Shown: positions 6,039 to 22,097 of the stretch, in pieces
How the letters are laid out: each line of letters opens with the position of its first letter
How positions within the stretch are numbered: position 1 is the stretch's first letter
Origin: Bacteroidales bacterium
GTDB lineage: Bacteria; Bacteroidota; Bacteroidia; Bacteroidales; UBA932
DNA: 51,183 bases
NCBI GenBank assembly: GCA_017443845.1
Contig: JAFSXX010000053.1
Span: 1 to 51,183, forward strand
Direction: 5' to 3'
The notes under the pieces: model-generated
Told to the model about the DNA's origin: nothing
Database searches by the model: none
Seen by the model: the letters and a program-made list of their open reading frames with translations, nothing else
Program-made: the position numbers and the translations under genes

Positions 6039-6071
6039 AATAGAGGCGGGACTATACCCTCATTTTTTAGT

Positions 6072-6098
6072 CCGGTACCTATCGGTGCCGGATTTTTT
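6072..6098 (+). terminator. Intrinsic terminator of clpB
   Basis: The 8-bp stem CCGGTACC / GGTGCCGG (one wobble pair) with loop TATC is followed by A and six T. Confidence 0.8.
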
Positions 6099-6132: not shown

Positions 6133-7917
6133 ATGCGCAGATTTATCGAACGATTGATTATCGCCGTATTCGTGCTGCTTGTCCCTATTGCAGCAACGGC
6201 TGAGGATATCACTCTTCAGAAGGCACGTTCCACCGCCGAACGCTTCTTCAGCAACTGCGGCGTCGCAACCAGGGCCGGTTCCGGCCTGACGCTTGTCAAC
6301 GCCAAGGAGATTGCCCAGACCAGGAGCGCATCGGAGGCTTATTATTACATCTTCAACCGCGACGGAGGAGGATTCGTGATTATCTCCGCTTTGGATGCGG
6401 CAATGCCGGTGCTGGGATACTCGCTCGAGCACTCCTTTGTCGATTACGAAGATTTGCCGGAGAACCTCGCGGAGATGTTGGAACTCTATCGTTACCAGAT
6501 AAAGGAGCGCCGAAAGAGCGGAGTCCCCGCCACATTGGAGGAACTCTCCCGCTGGAGTGCGGTCAACAATTCGACCCGCGCCGGGATTCCGGATGCCATC
6601 GACCTGCAGTCTCCCGACTGGGGACAGGGCGCTCCGTTCAACCGTTTCTGCCCCCTGGACACCGCGGGCAACAGGACCATCACCGGATGTACGGCCACCG
6701 CGATCAGCGAGGTGATGTACTTCCACAAGTGGCCCAAGGCGGGTCACGGCACCCTTCCCGGGTATTCCAAGACCAACGGCATCACTATTCCTGACACTCC
6801 CCTCGGACACGAATACCAGTGGGACAAGATGCTTCCCAAATACAAGAATGTGGAATATACCGACGAGCAGGCCGACGCCGTCGCGAGGCTGATGTCCGAT
6901 GTCGGCATAATGTGCCAGGCCAAATACGGCAAGAGTTCGACCAGCGCGGGCTCCAAGACGGGTATCCCCCGCCTTGCCACATATTTCTACTATGACAAGA
7001 ACATGACCCTGTTCCAGCACAACTATCTGACCGACGATGTATGGCGCGACGCCCTCCGCGAGGAGATCGGAAGCGGAAGGCCAGTTGTCTGCTACGCCAA
7101 CATTCCCGCAGGCGGTGCGGGCCACAACTTCGTCATCGACGGATACGACGCCGAGGGCCGCTTCCTCGTCAACTGGGGCTGGAACGCCGGTTCCAACGGC
7201 TACTACCACGTGGGAGCCTTCTACAACTCATATAACATCGGCCAGATCGGCTACACCCGCATAAGGCCGGACCAGGGCGGAGACTGGGAATATCTCATGT
7301 ACCTGAGGAAACACTCTCCCAGCGGAGTCAATTACAATGGAATGGTTTACACGGGCGGAACAGTGGCTCCCGGCAGTTCGTTCAACATCCGTTTCGGTGC
7401 CGTTTACAATGTAAGCTACGTCGAAATGGACGCCCAGATCCAGTTCGGCCTTTTCAACAAGAAAGGCGAACTCAAATGCTATCTGCGCACTTCTCCCCTC
7501 TCCAGCCATTTCACTGTCGGCAACTACAAATGGTGGAGCAGCGTGACTCTGACCGTCCCGTCGGACGCCACTATCGAAAGGGGCGATTATATGGAGCCTC
7601 TGTACAGGAATGCCGGACAGACCGAATGGAAGCATTTCGGCAATTCGGGCAACGAAAGCGATGAGATCACCGACAAGATGCCTCTCGATTTGCATTCCTC
7701 CACTTCCATAACCTACCAGAAAGGCACGAGCATCTTCACCATCAACTCCTTCATCGGTGTCAAGTGGTCGCTCTACAGGCCCGACGGAACCCTGATCAGG
7801 ACTTCAAACGCCACTTCGACGGCTACGAAACTGAACCTTTCGGCTTTCCCCAACGGGACCTACAAACTGGAACTTTCATACGCCGGCCAGGAGGCCACTA
7901 TCTATCTCACTTATTAA
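6133..7917 (+). CDS. C10 family (streptopain-like) cysteine protease, copy 1
   Basis: 594 residues. A signal peptide (ends near TAA-EDITL) is followed by a C10-type propeptide (about residues 22-150) and the catalytic domain. The catalytic Cys186 is in TGCTATAISEVMYFHKWP, which matches the streptopain motif TGCVATATAQIMKYHNYP. The catalytic His331 is in GHNFVIDGYD and is followed by VNWGW, as in SpeB; spacing and numbering are close to SpeB (Cys192, His340). About 230 C-terminal residues are strand-rich and not part of the core protease; they may serve surface attachment or recognition. Family members are secreted proteases activated by self-cleavage. The gene heads the first cassette and lies 30 bases before its lipoprotein partner. 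Confidence 0.93.
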   Translation: MRRFIERLIIAVFVLLVPIAATAEDITLQKARSTAERFFSNCGVATRAGSGLTLVNAKEIAQTRSASEAYYYIFNRDGGGFVIISALDAAMPVLGYSLEHSFVDYEDLPENLAEMLELYRYQIKERRKSGVPATLEELSRWSAVNNSTRAGIPDAIDLQSPDWGQGAPFNRFCPLDTAGNRTITGCTATAISEVMYFHKWPKAGHGTLPGYSKTNGITIPDTPLGHEYQWDKMLPKYKNVEYTDEQADAVARLMSDVGIMCQAKYGKSSTSAGSKTGIPRLATYFYYDKNMTLFQHNYLTDDVWRDALREEIGSGRPVVCYANIPAGGAGHNFVIDGYDAEGRFLVNWGWNAGSNGYYHVGAFYNSYNIGQIGYTRIRPDQGGDWEYLMYLRKHSPSGVNYNGMVYTGGTVAPGSSFNIRFGAVYNVSYVEMDAQIQFGLFNKKGELKCYLRTSPLSSHFTVGNYKWWSSVTLTVPSDATIERGDYMEPLYRNAGQTEWKHFGNSGNESDEITDKMPLDLHSSTSITYQKGTSIFTINSFIGVKWSLYRPDGTLIRTSNATSTATKLNLSAFPNGTYKLELSYAGQEATIYLTY

Positions 7918-7947
7918 TGGCGGTTAACATATAATTCACTCTTGATC

Positions 7948-10008
7948 ATGAAAGACAATAGAATATTGATATCAGTGCTCGCCCTCTCACTGGCAGCAGG
8001 AGCCTGCACAAGAGTTGACGAGTCATTGCTCATGGACAAAGCCGGCAACAATACCGTGGAGATTACGATAAACTGCCCGGCATCCCAGGATGATCCCACC
8101 CGTACGGACATCCAGGGCCTGAACCCCGTCTGGAAGGCCGGCGACGAAATCTGGATCAGCGACGGCGTGGATGCCGTGAGCGCAACCATCCCCAAGGAGT
8201 ACGACGGATTGACATACGCCAAGGTAAGCGTATCGGGCCTCAGGACCGACTCCACCTTCTACGCACTGTATCCTTATCAGGACAGCGCCTATGTCCATAA
8301 CGAGACCATTTATGCCTGGATTCCGACCAACCAGGACGGAACCTTCGCCAGGGCTCATCTGGCTGTCGGAGTAAGCCAGCCCGGAAGCGACCGCCACGTA
8401 GAATTCAAGAACGCCTGCGCGGTCCTGAAGTTCACCACCTTCCGCGAGGACCTCGCCGGACTGCAGATCCAGAACACCACAGCCAATTTCAGCGGCGAAT
8501 TCAGGATCGACCCCGCCACCGGTGCAAAGAAAGGCAACGGCAACTCCTTCAGGAGGATATGCCTCCCCTACGGCAGCAGGAACACCGGAGAAAAATATGT
8601 CTCGATGATGGAAAGCAACCTTCCCAAAGGAGCGAAGCTGACTTTCATCTCGCGCGACGGAAGGATGGGCTACATCTACACTTCGGCAAAGAACAGCCTC
8701 GAGAACGGATATCTCTACGACCTGGGGGACATCGACGATGCCATAACTATGGATGCTACCCCCGCCACCGACCTCGGAGAGGCCGGGACCGCCAACTGCT
8801 ACATAGTCAACGGCGGTGGCAGCTACCGCTTCGCGGCAGTGGAGGGCAACAGCAAGAAAGAGCTCGAAAATGTAGCCTATGCGGATGTGGTATGGGAAAC
8901 CGTAAACACTTCTACCGCTCCCTCAAAGTTCTCGATGGCTTCCGAAGTAGCATACTGTGAAGGTTATGTATATGTCAGGATTCCGGAAAACGTCCCCGAC
9001 GGCAACATACTCGTCTCGGTCAACGACGAATACGGCAACATCCTCTGGAGCTGGCATATCTGGATCCTCAAGGACGGCCTCACCGACCAGACCTGGCCCA
9101 GCGGAGCCGTAATGATGGACCGCAACCTGGGAGCGCTCAACGCCACACCTGGCAACGTACTTGCCAACGGCCTCCTCTACCAGTGGGGCCGAAAGGATCC
9201 ATTTATGGGAATCGGCAAGTTCAAGACCTCGACAGCGATGACAGCGGCCGGAACCGGCATCACCAATGTCGCACGAAACGAGGATAACGGCAGCGTGGAA
9301 TACGCCACCACCCACCCTACCCATTTCATCTACAAGAACGAGGGAGACTGGACCGACGACGACCTCGAACTCTGGTCCGCATCGAAGAAGACCAAATACG
9401 ACCCCTGCCCTCCCGGATACCACATTCCGTTCGAGTCTGTCTTCGAGGGAATGACCGCCGACAATGTCGTTTATGACGAAACCAATTACGGCCGTATGAT
9501 GACCTACGAATCCCAGCAGATCTGGTTCCCCTTCGCAGGCCGCAAGCAGTCAGGAACCGGCGGAGTCAACCTCGGTTACAGTTCCAATCCTATGTTCTAT
9601 CTCTTCTACGACCAGAACTCTTCCGAGAGCGCTTCCTGCTCGTGGGTCGGCACCTCCTCGACCCTCGTATTCGGAGGAAACGCATATCAGAAGTGCCACT
9701 CCAGCGGTTTCTCGGTACGCTGCCAGAAGATCGTCTCAAGTGGCATCACCAATACTATCAAGCTGAAATATAACGTAGAGGACGCATCCTACGGCGTAAA
9801 GGCTCCCTCCTTCACCGGAGAGTCCTATAGCGACCGCTTCATCGACTGGGGCGACGGAACCACCGAAAGGCTCGACGACCTTGAGCCCAAATTCTACCAC
9901 TACTACGGAGCTCCGGGTGCCTACTCGCTCGTTCTGACCGTCATGGATGCGACATCCATCACGGTGCCCATCGGCGATCTCACAGAAATAGATGTTACAG
10001 GATTTTAA
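7948..10008 (+). CDS. Fimbrillin-like lipoprotein with PKD-like C-terminus, copy 1
   Basis: 686 residues from the ATG; an in-frame TTG two codons upstream is not needed. The lipobox AAGAC gives lipidated Cys20. Residues ~40-260 resemble the fimbrillin/Mfa-like fold (VWKAGDEIWISDG, YALYPYQDSAY, MGYIYTS). Residues ~275-600 form a domain common in Bacteroidales surface proteins, marked by TANCYIVNGGGSYRF, ILWSWHIW, MMDRNLGA, LLYQWGRKDPF and CPPGYHIP (FISUMP-like). The last ~60 residues look like a PKD-type beta-sandwich (IDWGDGT, then YHYYGAPGAYSL). It is probably a surface adhesin or fimbrial tip-like protein. It lies between a C10 protease and a 42-residue peptide; proteolytic maturation by the neighbour is possible but not shown. 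Confidence 0.82.
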   Translation: MKDNRILISVLALSLAAGACTRVDESLLMDKAGNNTVEITINCPASQDDPTRTDIQGLNPVWKAGDEIWISDGVDAVSATIPKEYDGLTYAKVSVSGLRTDSTFYALYPYQDSAYVHNETIYAWIPTNQDGTFARAHLAVGVSQPGSDRHVEFKNACAVLKFTTFREDLAGLQIQNTTANFSGEFRIDPATGAKKGNGNSFRRICLPYGSRNTGEKYVSMMESNLPKGAKLTFISRDGRMGYIYTSAKNSLENGYLYDLGDIDDAITMDATPATDLGEAGTANCYIVNGGGSYRFAAVEGNSKKELENVAYADVVWETVNTSTAPSKFSMASEVAYCEGYVYVRIPENVPDGNILVSVNDEYGNILWSWHIWILKDGLTDQTWPSGAVMMDRNLGALNATPGNVLANGLLYQWGRKDPFMGIGKFKTSTAMTAAGTGITNVARNEDNGSVEYATTHPTHFIYKNEGDWTDDDLELWSASKKTKYDPCPPGYHIPFESVFEGMTADNVVYDETNYGRMMTYESQQIWFPFAGRKQSGTGGVNLGYSSNPMFYLFYDQNSSESASCSWVGTSSTLVFGGNAYQKCHSSGFSVRCQKIVSSGITNTIKLKYNVEDASYGVKAPSFTGESYSDRFIDWGDGTTERLDDLEPKFYHYYGAPGAYSLVLTVMDATSITVPIGDLTEIDVTGF

Positions 10009-10020
10009 CAAGGCAGAGTT

Positions 10021-10149
10021 ATGAAACAGATATATTACGCACCTTCGACGGAATCGGTCAGCCTCGCATCCTGGTCCGTGATAGCCGCAAGCGACGGCAA
10101 CCCGAGCGGCAACCTGCCCGGATTCAACAACGGCGACTTTACTCTTTAA
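10021..10149 (+). CDS. 42-residue conserved peptide, copy 1
   Basis: It encodes MKQIYYAPSTESVSLASW followed by a 22-residue tail running from IAASDGNPSG to NNGDFTL. It starts 12 bases after the lipoprotein stop and ends 22 bases before the next C10 protease. Copy 2 (14037-14165) has the identical 22-residue tail. In the DNA, 11 of these 22 codons differ, all silently, and the stop codon also differs. This is strong evidence that the peptide is translated and under selection. There is no clear signal peptide. The N-terminal pattern MK-x-IY-x-x-P-x-TE is, from memory, of a kind often seen in small Bacteroidales proteins of unknown role. Function unknown. Confidence 0.85.
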   Translation: MKQIYYAPSTESVSLASWSVIAASDGNPSGNLPGFNNGDFTL

Positions 10150-10171
10150 ACAATCAACTCTAAGAATCATA

Positions 10172-11962
10172 ATGAAAAAAAGAGCCCATCTCCTCTTACT
10201 GATACTGCTGCTCTCCGTTCCGGCAGTATCGCAAGCCGAAGACATCTCTCTTGACAAGGCCCGCAAGGTGGCAGAGACATTCTTCAACCGTTACGGAGTC
10301 TCAACCCGTTCCTCGTCACAGCTCACCCTTGTCAACGCGGATGAAGTCGCGGCGACCAGAAGCGCATCCGAAGTGGCGTTCTATATTTTCAACCGCCAGG
10401 GCGGCGGATTCGCGATCGTATCGGCGCTCGACGCCGCCTGCCCCATCCTCGGATACTCCCTCGACCACGAATTCGGCACGGGAGACGATATGCCCGCCAA
10501 TCTCGCGGAGTGGCTCGACCTCTACCGCCAGCAGATTTCGGAACGCCGCCGCAGCGGCAGACCGGCGACGGCGGAGGAGCTCGCGCGCTGGAACGAGGCC
10601 TCGTTCCAGACAAGGGCCGACCTCCCCGCTTCGGTCTTCCTCAACACCGCCGAATGGGGCCAGGGCGCACCCTACAACGGCCTCTGCCCCCTCGACACAG
10701 CAGGAAAGAAGTGTATTACAGGATGTACCAACACCGCCATCAGCCAGGTGATGTACTATCACCAGCATCCCAAGGCCGGCACCGGCACCCTCCCCTCCTA
10801 CACCAAGAACGGCATCACCTCGCCCAGCATCAAACTCGGCCACGAATATCAGTGGGACAAGATGATCCACAAGTACAAGGGCGCCACATATACCCAGGAG
10901 CAGGCCGATGCCGTAGCTCGGCTGATGTATGACGTCGCAGTGATGGGACAGGCCTCTTTCGGCAGCAGCGCCACCAGCACATCCACCACTTCGGCGGCCC
11001 CGAGGCTCCGCACCTATTTCGGTTATGACGCCGGAATGATCAGGTACGCCCGCAACTATACCGACGACGCGATGTGGAAAGCCCTGATGAAGGAAGAGAT
11101 CGGCAACAGGCGTCCGATCATTATGACCGCGAGCTCCGCTTCGGGCGGATCCCACGCCTTCGTAGTGGACGGATACGACTCAAACGACCGGTTCCACGTC
11201 AACTGGGGATGGAACGGCAGCAGCAACGGTTATTACTACATCAGCGCATTCGGCAGCTACACCATCGGACAGGTCATCTGGACGGGCCTGAAACCCAACG
11301 AGGGCAATCCCGAATATTATAATCTCGCACTCCGCAACACCACCCAGAGCGGCATCAACTACAAGGGAATCGAGTATATGAGCGGTTCAGCGACCCCGGG
11401 CAGCGCCGTATCGGTCCGCTTCGGCGCCGTTTACAACTACAGCATCTCGGGAGCCACCTTTTCCGGAGTGATCGGATTCGGACACTACAGCAAGGACGGC
11501 GTCCTCAAGGCTATGATGGATTGCACTCCCGAATTGAAGTTCTCCTCGCTCAGCAGCGGTTCCTACAGCTGGTCGTCAACCACGAGGGCCCTGGCAGTAA
11601 CCCAGCCGATCGAAAGGGGCGATTACATCGAGGCGCTCTACTTGCCGGAGGGCAAGAGCGAATGGCAGCATTTCTACAATGCCGGCAATCCCGACGACGA
11701 CATAATCGGCCGGATGCCGCTCCACATCAAGGACTTCTCCTCCATCAAGTATGCGCTTGGCAGCCGCAAGCTGGTCATCTGCACCTTCACAGGCTCGAAA
11801 TTCACCATAACCGACAAGGACGGCAACACCGTCCGCAGCGGCAACATAGGCAACACCGCATACAATATCAACCTCACCGACACTGAACGTTACCCCTCCG
11901 GGAAATACAAGGTCACTGTCACCTGCGGCGAGCAGTCATTCTCATTCGATCTGATTCTCTAA
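10172..11962 (+). CDS. C10 family (streptopain-like) cysteine protease, copy 2
   Basis: 596 residues, a full-length paralogue of the gene at 6133. The signal peptide ends near SQA-EDISL, and the propeptide is similar. The catalytic Cys185 is in TGCTNTAISQVMYYHQHP and His328 is in SHAFVVDGYD followed by VNWGW, so both catalytic residues are kept. The C-terminal ~225 residues align in length and pattern with copy 1 (for example IERGDYIEALY here, IERGDYMEPLY in copy 1). No terminator or promoter box was seen between the 42-residue peptide and this gene, so it is likely in the same operon. Divergence is spread along the protein, which suggests an old duplication. Confidence 0.93.
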   Translation: MKKRAHLLLLILLLSVPAVSQAEDISLDKARKVAETFFNRYGVSTRSSSQLTLVNADEVAATRSASEVAFYIFNRQGGGFAIVSALDAACPILGYSLDHEFGTGDDMPANLAEWLDLYRQQISERRRSGRPATAEELARWNEASFQTRADLPASVFLNTAEWGQGAPYNGLCPLDTAGKKCITGCTNTAISQVMYYHQHPKAGTGTLPSYTKNGITSPSIKLGHEYQWDKMIHKYKGATYTQEQADAVARLMYDVAVMGQASFGSSATSTSTTSAAPRLRTYFGYDAGMIRYARNYTDDAMWKALMKEEIGNRRPIIMTASSASGGSHAFVVDGYDSNDRFHVNWGWNGSSNGYYYISAFGSYTIGQVIWTGLKPNEGNPEYYNLALRNTTQSGINYKGIEYMSGSATPGSAVSVRFGAVYNYSISGATFSGVIGFGHYSKDGVLKAMMDCTPELKFSSLSSGSYSWSSTTRALAVTQPIERGDYIEALYLPEGKSEWQHFYNAGNPDDDIIGRMPLHIKDFSSIKYALGSRKLVICTFTGSKFTITDKDGNTVRSGNIGNTAYNINLTDTERYPSGKYKVTVTCGEQSFSFDLIL

Positions 11963-11975
11963 TTCCCTTCCAGTT

Positions 11976-14024
11976 ATGAAAAACGCATACAGAATCACCC
12001 TTTCCCTGCTGGCCGCAATCCTGTCGGCAGGAGCCTGCACCGTAGCTGAAGAGAATTTCATCGTCGATAACGGGAACAGGGATGCCGTCGAGATCACGGT
12101 AAACTGCCCCGCAAACGACGCGGAGCCCACCCGCACCGACATCACCGGCCTGAATCCGGTTTGGAAGGCCGGCGACGAGATATGGCTCAGCGACGGCATC
12201 AATGCAGTGAGCGCAGTGGTACCCAAGGAGTACGACGGAAAGAGCTACGCAAAGGTAACCGCGGTAGGACTCGACCCTGACGCCGATTATTACGCCCTCT
12301 ATCCCTATCAGGACAGCGCCTATGTCAAAGGCAACATCATATATGCCAGGATTCCCACCGTTCAGGACGGCAAATTCTCCGGCGCGCACCTGGCAGTCGG
12401 CGTCTGCAAGGCCGGAAGCGACCGCAACATTGAGTTCAGGAACGCCTCCTCGGTCCTCAAGTTCTCCACCTTCCGCGAGGATCTGGCAATGATCCAGCTG
12501 CAGAACATCAGCCTCGACTTCAGCGGCGAGTTCAAGATCAACGCCGATACCGGAGCCAAGTCCGGCAACTCCAATTCATTGAGGAAGGTTACCATCCCGA
12601 TCAGCAGCAGCGTAATCGGCGAGAAGTACCTCGGAGTTATGGAATGCAACCTCCCCAAGAACTCCAAACTGACCTTCATCACCAGCGACGGCAGGATGGG
12701 ATACATCTACACCTCGACGAGGAATGCCCTCTCCAACGGATACATCTACGACCTGGGCAATATCGACGATGCCATCACTATGGACAACGAACCGGCGGTC
12801 AACCTGGGCGCAGGTGAGACCGCAAACTGCTACATCGTCAACGGAGGCGGAAGTTACCGCTTCCCCGCGGTCGAAGGCAACAGCGGCAGCAAGATCTCAG
12901 ACATAGCTTACGGCGACGTAGTCTGGGAGACTATCAACAAAACCTCCGCCCCCGGAAAGTTCTCGCTCGCGGCCGAGGTCGCCTACAGCAACGGCTATAT
13001 GTACATCAGGATTCCCGAGGACGCGCCCGACGGCAACTTCCTCGTTTCGGCCTGCGACCAATACGGCAACATCCTCTGGAGCTGGCATATCTGGCTTCTC
13101 AAGGAAGGCGTCACCGACCAGACCTGGCCCAGCGGAGCCGTGATGATGGACCGTAACCTCGGTGCCCTCAGCGCCCTCCCCGGCAACGTGCTTTCCAACG
13201 GATTGCTCTACCAGTGGGGCCGCAAAGACCCGTTCCCCGGTTTGGCATCATACTCTTCCGCCACTGCGGCAGGAGTCGCCGGCTCGACCATTACCTCCAT
13301 CGGTTCCAGCGATGAGACCGGAACCGTAGAGTATGCCACCGCGCATCCGAACGCTTTCATCTACAAGAGCTCGGGCGACTGGGCAGGCGACGACCTCTCC
13401 TTCTGGTCAGCGCGGCTCAAGACCAAATACGACCCCTGCCCCGCAGGATATCACGTCCCCGCGGAATCGGCATACGACGGCCTGACCGCCGACAACACCG
13501 TCGACCAGAGCGGCAAATACGGCAGGCTGCTCACCCACGAATCACAGGAGATATGGTTCCCCTATGCCGGATGGAAGGCATCGGCAAGCGGCAGCCTCGG
13601 AAGCACCTCGAATTCGCACCTCTATATGTTCTATGACCAGAACACATCCGCCAGCGGCAAGTGCTCCTTCGCAGGCACTCCGACCAGCTTCGCGATAGGT
13701 GAAAGCGTCAGCCCCCACGCCAGCGGCTTCTCGCTCCGCTGCCAGAAGATCGTCTCGAGCGGCGATGTCAAGACAGTGAAGATGAAATACGCCGTGGAGG
13801 ATATTACCTACGGAGTCCTGGCGCCCTCGTTCACCGGCGACGCATACAGCGCCCGCCAGATCAACTGGGGCGACGGCGAAACCGAGAACCTGGCCCTCGA
13901 ATCTTATGTTTACCACTACTACAATGCCCCGGCGACCTATTCGATTACGGTGAGCACGGTCGATGCGACCTCCATAATCATTCCAGTCGGAGACCTCGTA
14001 GAACTGGATATTACCGGATTTTAA
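11976..14024 (+). CDS. Fimbrillin-like lipoprotein with PKD-like C-terminus, copy 2
   Basis: 682 residues, paralogue of the gene at 7948 with the same order of domains. The lipobox SAGAC gives Cys21. The fimbrillin-like part has PVWKAGDEIWLSDG and YALYPYQDSAYV. The middle domain has TANCYIVNGGGSYRF, ILWSWHIW, TWPSGAVMMDRNLGA and LYQWGRKDPF. The PKD-like end has INWGDGE, YHYYNAPATYS and the same final VTGF/ITGF ending. Conservation is highest in the WSWHIW to WGRKDPF segment and lower in the stretch after it (about residues 415-600), as expected if that face binds a ligand. It starts 13 bases after the C10 protease and ends 12 bases before the second small peptide. Confidence 0.82.
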   Translation: MKNAYRITLSLLAAILSAGACTVAEENFIVDNGNRDAVEITVNCPANDAEPTRTDITGLNPVWKAGDEIWLSDGINAVSAVVPKEYDGKSYAKVTAVGLDPDADYYALYPYQDSAYVKGNIIYARIPTVQDGKFSGAHLAVGVCKAGSDRNIEFRNASSVLKFSTFREDLAMIQLQNISLDFSGEFKINADTGAKSGNSNSLRKVTIPISSSVIGEKYLGVMECNLPKNSKLTFITSDGRMGYIYTSTRNALSNGYIYDLGNIDDAITMDNEPAVNLGAGETANCYIVNGGGSYRFPAVEGNSGSKISDIAYGDVVWETINKTSAPGKFSLAAEVAYSNGYMYIRIPEDAPDGNFLVSACDQYGNILWSWHIWLLKEGVTDQTWPSGAVMMDRNLGALSALPGNVLSNGLLYQWGRKDPFPGLASYSSATAAGVAGSTITSIGSSDETGTVEYATAHPNAFIYKSSGDWAGDDLSFWSARLKTKYDPCPAGYHVPAESAYDGLTADNTVDQSGKYGRLLTHESQEIWFPYAGWKASASGSLGSTSNSHLYMFYDQNTSASGKCSFAGTPTSFAIGESVSPHASGFSLRCQKIVSSGDVKTVKMKYAVEDITYGVLAPSFTGDAYSARQINWGDGETENLALESYVYHYYNAPATYSITVSTVDATSIIIPVGDLVELDITGF

Positions 14025-14036
14025 CGTTTCACAGTT

Positions 14037-14165
14037 ATGAAAGAGATTTACTCAACCCCTGTCACGGAAACGATGAAGCTCGCTGCGGAATCCCTGATCG
14101 CGGCCAGCGACGGAAATCCCAGCGGAAACCTCCCCGGTTTCAACAACGGAGATTTTACTCTTTAG
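14037..14165 (+). CDS. 42-residue conserved peptide, copy 2
   Basis: It encodes MKEIYSTPVTETMKLAAESL followed by the same 22-residue tail as copy 1. The N-terminal half has changed freely (12 of the 20 residues differ), whereas the tail is unchanged. Length is identical at 42 residues, and the gap to the preceding lipoprotein is 12 bases in both cassettes, ending in AGTT before the ATG. It is followed after 13 bases by the GH43-cystatin gene, where a third protease would otherwise be expected. Function unknown; it could be a ligand, a protease substrate or inhibitor, or a processed peptide. Confidence 0.85.
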   Translation: MKEIYSTPVTETMKLAAESLIAASDGNPSGNLPGFNNGDFTL

Positions 14166-14178
14166 AACATTGAATAAG

Positions 14179-15720
14179 ATGAAGTCAAGGACTCTGCTAT
14201 CCGTAATAATGGCCCTGGCCCTGGCCGCCTCCTCCACGGCGGCGAAGGCCCAGACGCTCTACAGCAATCCCGTTATCGGATTGAACTGCCCTGACCCGTC
14301 CATCATAGACGACCGCGGGCGCAGCGGCTACTTTTACCTCTACACCACCCAGACCTCATTCGAGTCGGCCCTCAGGAAAGACTCCTCCCCCGTCGTCCGG
14401 GGCGCAAGGATAATCAACCTGCCGATTTACAGGTCCACCGACCTGGTGAACTGGGAGTTTGTCGGCGACGGCTTCCCAAACGGCCATCCCGACTGGGTCA
14501 AGAATGCCAACCTTTGGGCACCCGACATCAATTACATCGACGGTAAGTATGTGCTCTACTATGCCCTCGGCAAGTGGGGCGGCATATTCAGTTCCGCCTG
14601 CGGAGTCGCCGTATCGGATTCTCCCGAAGGCCCCTTCGAGGATTATGACCGCCTGGTGGACTTCAGGACAATGGGGACCCTCAATTCCATCGATCCCAAT
14701 TACTTCAGCGACGAAACCGGCAGTTACCTCCTCTGGGGAAGCCTCGGAGGCGGAATATATGGCATCGAACTCACCGACGACGGCCTTTTCGTAAAGCCCG
14801 GAGCCAAGAAGAAACTGCTCACCGCCCTCAACACCGAGGGAGCCTTCCTCTATGAGAGGGACGGCTGGTACTATCTCTTCGCTTCAGCGGGTTCCTGCTG
14901 CCGCGGACAGGGCAGCACCTACCACATAATCGTGGGCCGCGCGAAGCATCCCCTGGGTCCCTACACCGGACCCGACGGGCAGTCAATGCTCAAGCTCAAC
15001 TACAGGAACACCATCCTCGCATCGAGCCGCGACAAAGTATTCATCGGCCCGGGGCACAACTCCGAAATCATCACCGACGATGAGGGCAACGACTGGATAT
15101 TCTACCACAGTTACAATGCCGCAGACGGCTATGCCTCCCGCCAGCTCCACCTCGACCGCATCAAGTGGAATTACAACGGATGGCCCTTTTTCGAGATGGG
15201 TGAGCCCTCGGGCAACGCAACCAGGCCGGTTTTCAGCGGAGCGCCTGTCAAACCCATCGCCAAGGCGTATGTCCCAGCACCCGGGGAGAACACCAAGGCG
15301 ACAGCAGATACTACTACAGTCAAGATTATGCCAAAGAAAGCAGCTGACACAGCCACAGGCCTTACAGGCGACACCGGCGACAAGAAGATAACGACGGGCA
15401 AGGACCCCGTAAAGGTCACCGAAACGATTCCGGAATTCAGGACTCCCCCGGATGATGAGTACATCCAGCTGCCCGGCGGATGGTCGCAGCACCGCGACGT
15501 CTCGCCCGAAGAGCTGGAGATGTTCCGCAAACTCACCAAGAACTCGGGTCTCATCCTCACCCCCGTCTCTGTCGCAACGCAGGTGGTAGCCGGCCTCAAC
15601 TACGACTTCGTCTGCAAAATCGAGGACGCAAGCCGCCGCTCCAACGGAGAGTGCCGCATCAGGATATTCAAGCCCCTGGCCGGAGAGCCCGAGATCACGG
15701 ATATGTCACTGATCAAATAA
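14179..15720 (+). CDS. GH43-type glycoside hydrolase with C-terminal cystatin-like domain
   Basis: 513 residues from the ATG; an in-frame TTG lies 9 bases earlier. A signal peptide ends near AKA-QTLYS. The five-bladed GH43 domain covers about residues 28-355. Candidate catalytic residues are the Asp of CPDPSIID (base), the Asp of SIDPNYF (modulator) and the Glu of NTEGAFLYERDGWYYLFAS (acid), as in arabinanase or xylosidase families. A Thr/Lys/Ala-rich linker follows (about 365-425). The last ~85 residues look like a cystatin: a Gly-Gly trunk (433-434, PGGW), the helix SPEELEMFRKL, the hallmark loop QVVAG (468-472) followed by LNY, and a second hairpin near IFKPLAGEPEIT. Cystatins block papain-like proteases by inserting these three parts into the active-site cleft. 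Location beside two C10 proteases supports an inhibitor or targeting role. Confidence 0.85.
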   Translation: MKSRTLLSVIMALALAASSTAAKAQTLYSNPVIGLNCPDPSIIDDRGRSGYFYLYTTQTSFESALRKDSSPVVRGARIINLPIYRSTDLVNWEFVGDGFPNGHPDWVKNANLWAPDINYIDGKYVLYYALGKWGGIFSSACGVAVSDSPEGPFEDYDRLVDFRTMGTLNSIDPNYFSDETGSYLLWGSLGGGIYGIELTDDGLFVKPGAKKKLLTALNTEGAFLYERDGWYYLFASAGSCCRGQGSTYHIIVGRAKHPLGPYTGPDGQSMLKLNYRNTILASSRDKVFIGPGHNSEIITDDEGNDWIFYHSYNAADGYASRQLHLDRIKWNYNGWPFFEMGEPSGNATRPVFSGAPVKPIAKAYVPAPGENTKATADTTTVKIMPKKAADTATGLTGDTGDKKITTGKDPVKVTETIPEFRTPPDDEYIQLPGGWSQHRDVSPEELEMFRKLTKNSGLILTPVSVATQVVAGLNYDFVCKIEDASRRSNGECRIRIFKPLAGEPEITDMSLIK

Positions 15721-19764: not shown

Positions 19765-20961
19765 ATGAAAAGAGTACTTCTCCTCGCTGCTGCAGGTCTG
19801 ATGACCTTCACGGCATTCGCACAGCCCAAGGAAGAGAAAGACGGCTTCCAGTTCACCACCGTCAAGGCTAACCCTATCACCTCTGTGAAGAACCAGGCAA
19901 GTTCCGGTACCTGCTGGTGCTTCTCGGGCATCTCCCTCGCTGAGTCCGAGGCTATCCGTCTCGGCACCGCAACCCCTGAGACCATCGACCTCGCCGAGAT
20001 GTTCGTAGTAGGCAACACCTACATCGACAGGGCGGTCAAGTATGTCCGCACCGACGGCCACGTAAGCTACGGCCAGGGCAGTTCCTGCAAGGATGTCTTC
20101 TACTCGATGAAAGATCACGGCATCGTCCCCAACAGCGAGATGCCGGGCCTCAACTACGGCACCGAGAACCACAAGCACGCTGAGCTCGCAGCTGTCTGCA
20201 AGGGTTTCGTACAGGCTATCGCCACCAACCCCAACAAGACCCTCTCCCCCGCTTGGAAAAACGCCCTCAAGGGCATCGTCGAGGCCTATCTTGGCAAGTT
20301 CCCCGAGACCTTCACGGTAAACGGCAAGGAGTACACTCCGAAGAGCTACTTCGAGTCCCTCAAACTCAATCCCGACGACTATCTGGATTTCACCTCCTGG
20401 ACTCATATCCCCTACTACGAGCAGTCTCCCGTCGAGGTTGGCGACAACTGGCGCTGGGAATACGCATACAATGTACCTCTCGATGATATGATCAAGATCT
20501 TCGACTACGCCATCGACAAGGGTTACACCATCGCCTGGGGCGCAGACGTCAGCGAGCAGGGCTTCACCCGCAACGGCATCGCCATCGTTCCCGATCCCGA
20601 GGTGATCACCAAGGCAAAGGAGAAGGGCAGCGACGAGGCACGCTGGCTCGGCGTAACCTCCACCACCGCCAAGTTCGAGGTCAAGGGTCCCGTCAAGGAG
20701 ATGGAAATCACTCCCGAGAACCGCCAGAAAGGTTACGAGGAGAAGACCACTACCGACGACCACGGAATGCACATCTTCGGTATCGCAAAGGACCAGAACG
20801 GCAACAAGTATTATATGGTCAAGAACTCCTGGGGCGACAGCAGCAAGTACAAAGGCATCTGGTATGTCTCCGAGGCCTATGTCAAGTACAAGACAATGGA
20901 CTTCCTGATCCACAAGGACGCTCTCCCCAAGGATATCAAGAAAAAATGCGATATCAAGTAA
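19765..20961 (+). CDS. Secreted C1B cysteine peptidase (bleomycin hydrolase / PepC-like)
   Basis: 398 residues with a signal peptide ending near AFA-QPKEE. Catalytic parts of the C1B family are all present: Gln44 (KNQASSG), Cys50 in GTCWCFSG, His336 in HGMHIFG and Asn354 in VKNSWG. Family enzymes are usually cytoplasmic aminopeptidases that form hexamers; here the protein is exported and about 50-60 residues shorter than PepC. The C-terminal IKKKCDIK differs from the self-processing tail of PepC. It starts a probable operon with the next peptidase and pssA. Codon use is strongly biased to C-ending codons, which suggests high expression. Confidence 0.92.
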   Translation: MKRVLLLAAAGLMTFTAFAQPKEEKDGFQFTTVKANPITSVKNQASSGTCWCFSGISLAESEAIRLGTATPETIDLAEMFVVGNTYIDRAVKYVRTDGHVSYGQGSSCKDVFYSMKDHGIVPNSEMPGLNYGTENHKHAELAAVCKGFVQAIATNPNKTLSPAWKNALKGIVEAYLGKFPETFTVNGKEYTPKSYFESLKLNPDDYLDFTSWTHIPYYEQSPVEVGDNWRWEYAYNVPLDDMIKIFDYAIDKGYTIAWGADVSEQGFTRNGIAIVPDPEVITKAKEKGSDEARWLGVTSTTAKFEVKGPVKEMEITPENRQKGYEEKTTTDDHGMHIFGIAKDQNGNKYYMVKNSWGDSSKYKGIWYVSEAYVKYKTMDFLIHKDALPKDIKKKCDIK

Positions 20962-20969
20962 TCTGAAAG

Positions 20970-22097
20970 ATGAAACGATACTTCACTATAATGGCAGCAG
21001 TGCTCTTGAGCACTGCTGTCTTTGCTCAGAAGAACGTCCCCTACAAGCTCACGCCGGTGGCGGGCAACATCTCCACCCCCACCAGGTACCAGGGTCGCAC
21101 CGGCACCTGCTGGTGCCACGCAGGAATCTCGTTCCTCGAGTCGGAGCTTATCCGCCGCGGCAAGGGAGAGTATGACCTCTCCGAGATGTTCCTCGTGCGG
21201 CGGAACTATATTAACCGATTCTTCAGCAACCACATGCTCCACGGCAACGGCAATCTCGGCCAGGGAGGACATCCCCACCAGGTCATGAGGCTCGTCGCCT
21301 GGTACGGAGCCGTTCCCGAGAGCGTTTACAGCGGACTGCCCGCAGGCAGCACAGGGCACGACCAGAAGGCAATGAACAACAAGATCAAGGAGATGGGCGC
21401 AAAAGTCGCCCAAGCCAGGGCCTACACCGACGCCGACCGCGCGGAACTCTCCGCCCTTCTGGATGCCAATCTCGGCCCAGTTCCCGAGAAATTCATGTGG
21501 GAAGGCAAAGAGTACACTCCCAAGAGTTTTGCCGAGCATATCGGCCTTACCGAGAAGTATCTCGACGAAATCGTCAACTTCACAAGTTTCTCGCATTACC
21601 CTTTTTACCGTCCTTTCAGCCTTGAGGTCAAGGACAACTGGGACGGAGGACAGTATATGAACGTGCCCCTTGACGAGTTCACGGCCATCATCGACTACGC
21701 CCTCCGCCAAGGCTACACCGTAATCTGGAGCGGTGACACGAACGCCGGCTTCAACCGCAGCCACGAGATGGCGATCAATCCCCTTCCGGAGTATTTCGAC
21801 GAGGCCATGAAGTTCGAGAAGATCTATCCGGAAATCGAAGTCACCCAGGAAAACCGTCAGAAGGACTACGAGACCTTCCGCACCGTCGATCAGCACTCGA
21901 TGCATATCGTCGGCATCTGCCAGGACCAGAACGGCAACATCTTCTACAAGGTCAAGGAGTCTGCCTTCAAGAAGGGAAGCGACAACGGAGGATTCATGTA
22001 TATGTCGCGCAGTTTCGTGACGATGCGCGGTCTCTCGATCATGGTCCACAAAAAGGGAGTCCCCAAGGATATCCGCAAGAAATGCGGCATAAAGTAG
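20970..22097 (+). CDS. Secreted C1B peptidase paralogue lacking the catalytic Asn
   Basis: 375 residues with a signal peptide ending near VFA-QKNVP. It is homologous along its whole length to the gene 8 bases upstream, and both end in KKC(D/G)IK. Gln (in RYQGRTG), Cys47 (GTCWCHAG) and His312 (HSMHIVG) are kept. The VKNSWG motif has become VKESAF, with Glu330 at the Asn position, and the Trp-Gly is lost. In papain-like enzymes this Asn orients the catalytic His, and its loss lowers but need not abolish activity. It may be a weakened enzyme, one with changed chemistry, or a regulatory partner of the first copy. Confidence 0.88.
   Translation: MKRYFTIMAAVLLSTAVFAQKNVPYKLTPVAGNISTPTRYQGRTGTCWCHAGISFLESELIRRGKGEYDLSEMFLVRRNYINRFFSNHMLHGNGNLGQGGHPHQVMRLVAWYGAVPESVYSGLPAGSTGHDQKAMNNKIKEMGAKVAQARAYTDADRAELSALLDANLGPVPEKFMWEGKEYTPKSFAEHIGLTEKYLDEIVNFTSFSHYPFYRPFSLEVKDNWDGGQYMNVPLDEFTAIIDYALRQGYTVIWSGDTNAGFNRSHEMAINPLPEYFDEAMKFEKIYPEIEVTQENRQKDYETFRTVDQHSMHIVGICQDQNGNIFYKVKESAFKKGSDNGGFMYMSRSFVTMRGLSIMVHKKGVPKDIRKKCGIK

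Follow-up and report, generated by a model that had tools for sequence, protein, structure and literature searches.

An arabinanase-like GH43 glycosidase with an intact-looking stefin-type cystatin at its C-terminus, encoded by a single gene in a gut-type bacterium

Introduction

The 51,183-nucleotide contig JAFSXX010000053.1 of a Bacteroidales bacterium (assembly GCA_017443845.1; hereafter the window) carries one gene whose product, protein P0001, appears to join a plant-sugar-cutting glycoside hydrolase of family GH43 to an intact-looking cystatin, a small cysteine protease inhibitor more familiar from animals and plants. Why should a bacterial glycosidase bear a protease inhibitor of this kind, and which proteases would it act on? 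A first-pass annotation of the sequence had described the fusion and its position directly after two C10 cysteine protease cassettes, and had proposed that the inhibitor might control those proteases, protect the cell, or block host or competitor enzymes. The observation was confirmed, and the interpretation was partly supported.

Results

Domain organization of P0001

Residues 28-336 of the protein scored 210.2 bits against the GH43 profile PF04616, well above the curated cut-off of 32.2, and its closest relatives in the PDB were endo-1,5-alpha-L-arabinanases (6a8h, E 2.4e-32). D172 and E220 align to an Asp and a Glu of these arabinanases that we take to be catalytic, and D39, in a CPDPS context, presumably represents the GH43 general-base motif, the PDB alignments beginning downstream of it. 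Between the catalytic domain and the C-terminal domain lies a variable linker interrupted by the invariant block KAADTATGLTGDTG, in which a DTA triplet fits what we assume to be the Bacteroidetes O-glycosylation motif. From the features of its N-terminus, P0001 is probably an exported two-domain protein. A sorting tail of the type IX secretion system was considered for the C-terminus and rejected, P0001 having no match to Por_Secre_tail and the fold search returning cystatins.

Structure prediction indicates that residues 425-513 almost certainly adopt a stefin fold, in which a four-stranded antiparallel sheet curls around a helix. The fold search against known structures, which the first-pass annotation had suggested as a check, yielded cystatins and stefins, and the structural alignments with animal stefins gave 19-29% identity. 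The three hallmarks named in that annotation were all recovered by alignment with stefin A: the trunk glycines (LPGGW, opposite PGG), a QxVxG first hairpin (QVVAG), and a second hairpin of the stefin kind (FKPLAG, opposite FKSLPG). A chance motif was ruled out, the domain reaching 80.4 bits compared with a best score of 4.0 among 1000 shuffles. PF00031 gave no match over its cut-off on this domain, which is a limit of the profile library and no structural criterion; a related bacterial fusion, an amidohydrolase with a C-terminal cystatin domain (L030 1-1749, + strand), does pass that cut-off (E 7e-8). Stefins are usually cytosolic, without signal peptide or disulfides, but the rule has exceptions, among them 6i1m, which by its title is a secreted type 1 cystatin. 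In P0001 the protein start is signal-peptide-like and the model places the two cysteines of the domain, C479 and C492, on neighbouring strands, where they may form a disulfide.

Conservation of the fusion in a second species

The same architecture was found in locus L005 (6001-7563, protein P0004), which belongs to a metagenome-assembled genome (MAG) from water buffalo rumen (G213, contig JAFZXU010000059.1). The two proteins are 65-72% identical, and an assembly or frameshift chimera is ruled out by the uninterrupted fusion recurring in this second MAG. Among 40 genomes of the genus, the fusion occurs in these two and stand-alone lipoprotein-like stefins in two others, a count of 4/40 that comes from a single-sequence search with lipoprotein calls made by eye. 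A wider GH43-cystatin family was not found in one scan of genome contigs, where one of nine P0001-related loci (L005) had both domains.

The kinds of neighbouring genes follow the same order in both species, namely C10 genes, a lipoprotein-like gene, a 42-residue open reading frame (ORF), and the GH43-stefin gene; beyond it lie MFS and GH3 genes on the opposite strand and then C1B genes. Because this is one inherited gene order common to both, the two carriers count as one case. The ratio of nonsynonymous to synonymous substitution rates (dN/dS) was 0.158 for the stefin domain (95% bootstrap range 0.07-0.30) and 0.126 for GH43 (0.08-0.18), with 61 undefined bootstrap values omitted and overlapping ranges. 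The stefin domain is thus under purifying selection and about as constrained as the enzyme. P0004 has Glu at the position of Asp39, the presumed general base, and its enzymatic activity may therefore be lower, with the stefin intact. The lipoprotein-like gene ahead of the fusion is split in the buffalo MAG (L005 3787-4629 and 4729-5850), by a real break or a sequencing error.

Related bacterial stefins

Bacterial stefins, which we take to be MEROPS family I25, were compared in a tree of 50 rows, obtained from a 55-row domain set by removing duplicates and fragments (L066, L066b, L037, L032b, L021b). L058, whose match contains two stops, and L110, a partial match for which the correct frame was not recovered, never entered the domain set, and L031 (E 0.006, internal stop) was left out of the alignments. 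With few columns, long branches (L030, L026b, L121, L114), and 12 open forks, the tree was used for one local statement alone. The two GH43-fused stefins fall in a seven-row fork with support 87/96, below the starred level, whose other members are lipoprotein-like stefins, including one joined to an unknown domain. A second cysteine (GxC) is present in all seven rows of this fork compared with 0 of the 43 other rows, a pattern that would suit a disulfide-bonded form outside the cell.

The stefin domain is a recurrent module in this bacterial family, often in lipoprotein-like form. A look-alike unknown domain, judged by eye, precedes the stefin in one genome and follows it in another (L108 895-1749 and L109 1279-2172, both + strand); the opposite orders suggest independent fusions. 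One family, f136 (L035-L057, in part), accounted for 15 of the 26 genomes that matched in the phylum search, and stefin-like proteins may therefore be more regular there than in the order of the window. One scan of viral contigs gave a single relative, L121, whose branch in the tree is long. A C-terminal cystatin-like domain also occurs in flavodoxin-type proteins that begin like lipoproteins (L060 1498-2505, - strand, on contig C8 of the window's own genome; L116, L029, and L111-L115); these tails lack QxVxG and are therefore not expected to inhibit.

Gene neighbourhood

The fusion gene closes a row of seven + strand genes (6133 to 15720, gaps of at most 30 nucleotides) that are probably co-transcribed: C10a, a lipoprotein-like gene, a 42-residue ORF, C10b, and a second lipoprotein-like gene and 42-residue ORF precede it (Table 1). 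Both proteases have a GC motif, with Cys186 and His331 in C10a and Cys185 and His328 in C10b, presumably the catalytic positions. We take lipoprotein-like gene a to be FISUMP-like. In the C10 cassettes, each lipoprotein-like gene is followed by one of two similar 42-residue ORFs (MK-IY...GNLPGFNNGDFTL), of which a relative in L005 lies just upstream of 6001. Terminator-like sites numbered 11, near the 9.2 expected from the shuffled mean.

Table 1 Features of the P0001 gene and its neighbourhood in the window
Feature	Positions	Strand	Basis and remarks
Terminator-like hairpin, possible transcription-unit border	6069..6094	+	Just upstream of C10a; consensus scan only
C10 protease a with I69 propeptide	6133..7917	+	PF01640 E 7e-57, PF13734 E 4.5e-21
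Lipoprotein-like gene a	7948..10008	+	Start 7942 (TTG) or 7948 (ATG); no Pfam family over cut-off
42-residue ORF a	10021..10149	+	ORF
C10 protease b with I69 propeptide	10172..11962	+	PF01640 E 1.5e-60, PF13734 E 1.4e-22
Lipoprotein-like gene b, resembles gene a	11976..14024	+	a and b match the same L014 genes
42-residue ORF b	14037..14165	+	Ends 13 nucleotides ahead of GH43-stefin gene; relative at same place in L005
GH43-stefin fusion gene	14179..15720	+	513 residues, uninterrupted ORF; protein P0001; equal architecture in L005 6001-7563
Signal-peptide-like N-terminus, residues 1-25	14179..14253	+	Read by eye as type I; lipobox cysteine absent
GH43 catalytic domain, endo-arabinanase-like, residues 28-336	14260..15186	+	PF04616 E 5.3e-62
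Linker, variable, Lys/Thr/Pro-rich, residues 341-424	15199..15450	+	Alignment with P0004; synonymous change saturated
KAADTATGLTGDTG block, residues 387-400	15337..15378	+	14 residues, invariant in both species within variable linker
Stefin-type cystatin domain, residues 425-513 (last 89)	15451..15717	+	Fold search, motifs
LPGGW, N-terminal trunk with Gly-Gly, residues 431-435	15469..15483	+	Aligned to stefin A PGG
QVVAGLNY, first inhibitory hairpin (QVVAG, 468-472)	15580..15603	+	Sequence motif, alignment
FKPLAG, second hairpin	15667..15684	+	Aligned to stefin A FKSLPG
Two C1B-like cysteine peptidase genes, further possible targets; both starts signal-peptide-like	19765..22097	+	PF03051 E 2.9e-12, 1.4e-11

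Discussion

Likely function of the stefin domain

The explanation that we favour, with a probability of about 0.45 as a whole, is that P0001 is an exported arabinanase-like GH43 tethered through a flexible linker to a functional stefin. The Gly-Gly trunk, the QVVAG hairpin, and the PL hairpin would form the classical wedge that fills the active-site cleft of papain-like (clan CA) proteases, and the domain would most likely serve as a shield, keeping extracellular proteases of protozoa, plant feed, or host off the enzyme and the surrounding cell surface. The fusion probably arose when a GH43 gene joined a lipoprotein-like stefin pre-existing in the bacterial family. It is supported by the constraint on the domain, by its place among lipoprotein-like stefins with a second cysteine, and by the fold and motifs, which papain-inhibiting stefins share; the domain probably inhibits some clan CA protease. 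In the window's own genome (93% complete), only the window's two C1B genes score over the cut-off of the papain family model PF00112, a fourth match, on contig C20, being under the cut-off and left unclassified; an endogenous classical papain target is therefore unlikely, and such a target would probably have to be external. We put the odds that external papain-like proteases are the main target at slightly less than even. Papain-family peptidases are expressed by Entodinium, a ciliate of the rumen; signal peptides are predicted for three of the four cysteine proteinases that it expresses highly, secretion not being established according to that paper (PMC6925433). Several points weigh against a shield. 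Only for the second carrier is a rumen habitat known, the adjoining C10 genes suggest an internal target, and the degenerate tails of the flavodoxins in the same genome indicate that a cystatin fold here need not inhibit. On the side of the shield, a plant study cites a case in which fusion to a cystatin strongly stabilised another protein, but its authors' own constructs used inactive cystatin variants, and 14 of their 16 fusions out-accumulated the single domains (PMC6181212); since inactive fusions accumulated too, stabilisation needs no inhibition. The domain could by that token be a non-inhibitory C-terminal accessory module for docking, stability, or export, its stefin surface kept incidentally. 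We regard this as quite unlikely: the GH43-fused domain retains the three inhibitory elements that the flavodoxin tails lack, and it groups with lipoprotein-like stefins, apart from those tails.

The main rival to the shield is that the stefin inhibits the co-encoded C10 enzymes, or the nearby C1B enzymes, and would protect the envelope of the producer during export, the role suggested for Spi towards SpeB and for the staphostatin-like Bfi proteins of Bacteroides fragilis. That species co-transcribes two C10 genes with genes for predicted inhibitors of the staphostatin-like kind (PMC2873492). The tight gene row ending in the fusion and the C10 genes upstream in the second species are consistent with such a guard, as are C10 matches in three of the four stefin-bearing genomes of the genus, compared with 25/40 overall (five matches in the window's own genome). 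However, because C10 genes are this common in the genus, their adjacency carries modest weight, and the shared inherited gene order reduces the two carriers to a single case. C10 or C1B homologues lay near none of 14 other loci (stretches of 6 to 20 kb, with L071 unconfirmed as a stefin), and a general stefin-C10 linkage was not found among 15 loci, where it occurred once, at the other GH43 fusion; in genome G182 (80% complete) a stefin occurs without any C10 match. The general link is weak. Moreover, the C10 proteins have I69 domains of their own, SpeB, the archetypal C10 enzyme, cuts human cystatin C in the N-terminal region and at IV|AG, both inhibitory regions (PMC8745752), and staphopains (C47) cleave human cystatins and stay uninhibited (PMC3560952). 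We therefore consider a guard of the operon rather unlikely. Another possibility, which seems unlikely, is a self-armoured glycosidase in which the stefin also fits the C10 enzymes of its own operon and would be the first stefin-type inhibitor partnered with C10; plant or glycan-bound protein would then be released under the bacterium's own proteases, with enzyme and cell surface shielded from them. Very improbable is the converse effect, in which the stefin would bind a bacterial cysteine protease and accelerate it, as human cystatin C does with IdeS (PMC3560952, PMC3594739): the probable operon with C10 genes would suit it, but C10 enzymes are another family than IdeS.

Comparison with known systems

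The first-pass annotation knew of no cystatin fused to a GH43, and this part of its novelty claim stood, since no description of such a protein was found in the titles and passages of the literature and none of the papers pairing "GH43" with "cystatin" concerned a bacterial fusion by title. The annotation was not fully right about the domain itself, a recurrent module in this family. Reports of bacterial cystatins, fusions included, go back to 2009 (Kordis and Turk 2009, PMC2784779), and a 2012 review held that bacterial stefins need further experimental data (PMC3594739). What seems new is the GH43 partner. If the domain inhibits, P0001 would be a carbohydrate-active enzyme with a built-in protease inhibitor, an arrangement exploited deliberately in plant biotechnology, and bacterial stefins would gain a concrete target to test in the two protease genes of the same row.

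The animal stefins A and B and the secreted Fasciola type 1 cystatin (1dvc, 1stf, 6i1m) share the fold, Gly trunk, QVVAG, and second hairpin with P0001, whose domain differs from them in its low identity, its lack of a PF00031 match, its probable export, and its fusion to an enzyme. The flavodoxin lipoproteins resemble it as C-terminal cystatin-like domains on another protein in the same bacteria, but QVVAG is found in the P0001 domain. Likewise, the SpeB-Spi and Bfp-Bfi operons encode a cysteine protease inhibitor on the same strand as the C10 genes and downstream of them; however, Spi is called a propeptide analogue and Bfi staphostatin-like, and neither is described in the passages of that paper as a cystatin or as glycosidase-fused (PMC2873492). 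Stefin-type domains are also reported, with a patchy distribution, from other bacteria, including a Bacteroides fragilis stefin fused to chagasin (PMC2784779); the stefin of P0001, by contrast, is joined to a GH43 glycosidase, in a gene that closes a probable C10 operon.
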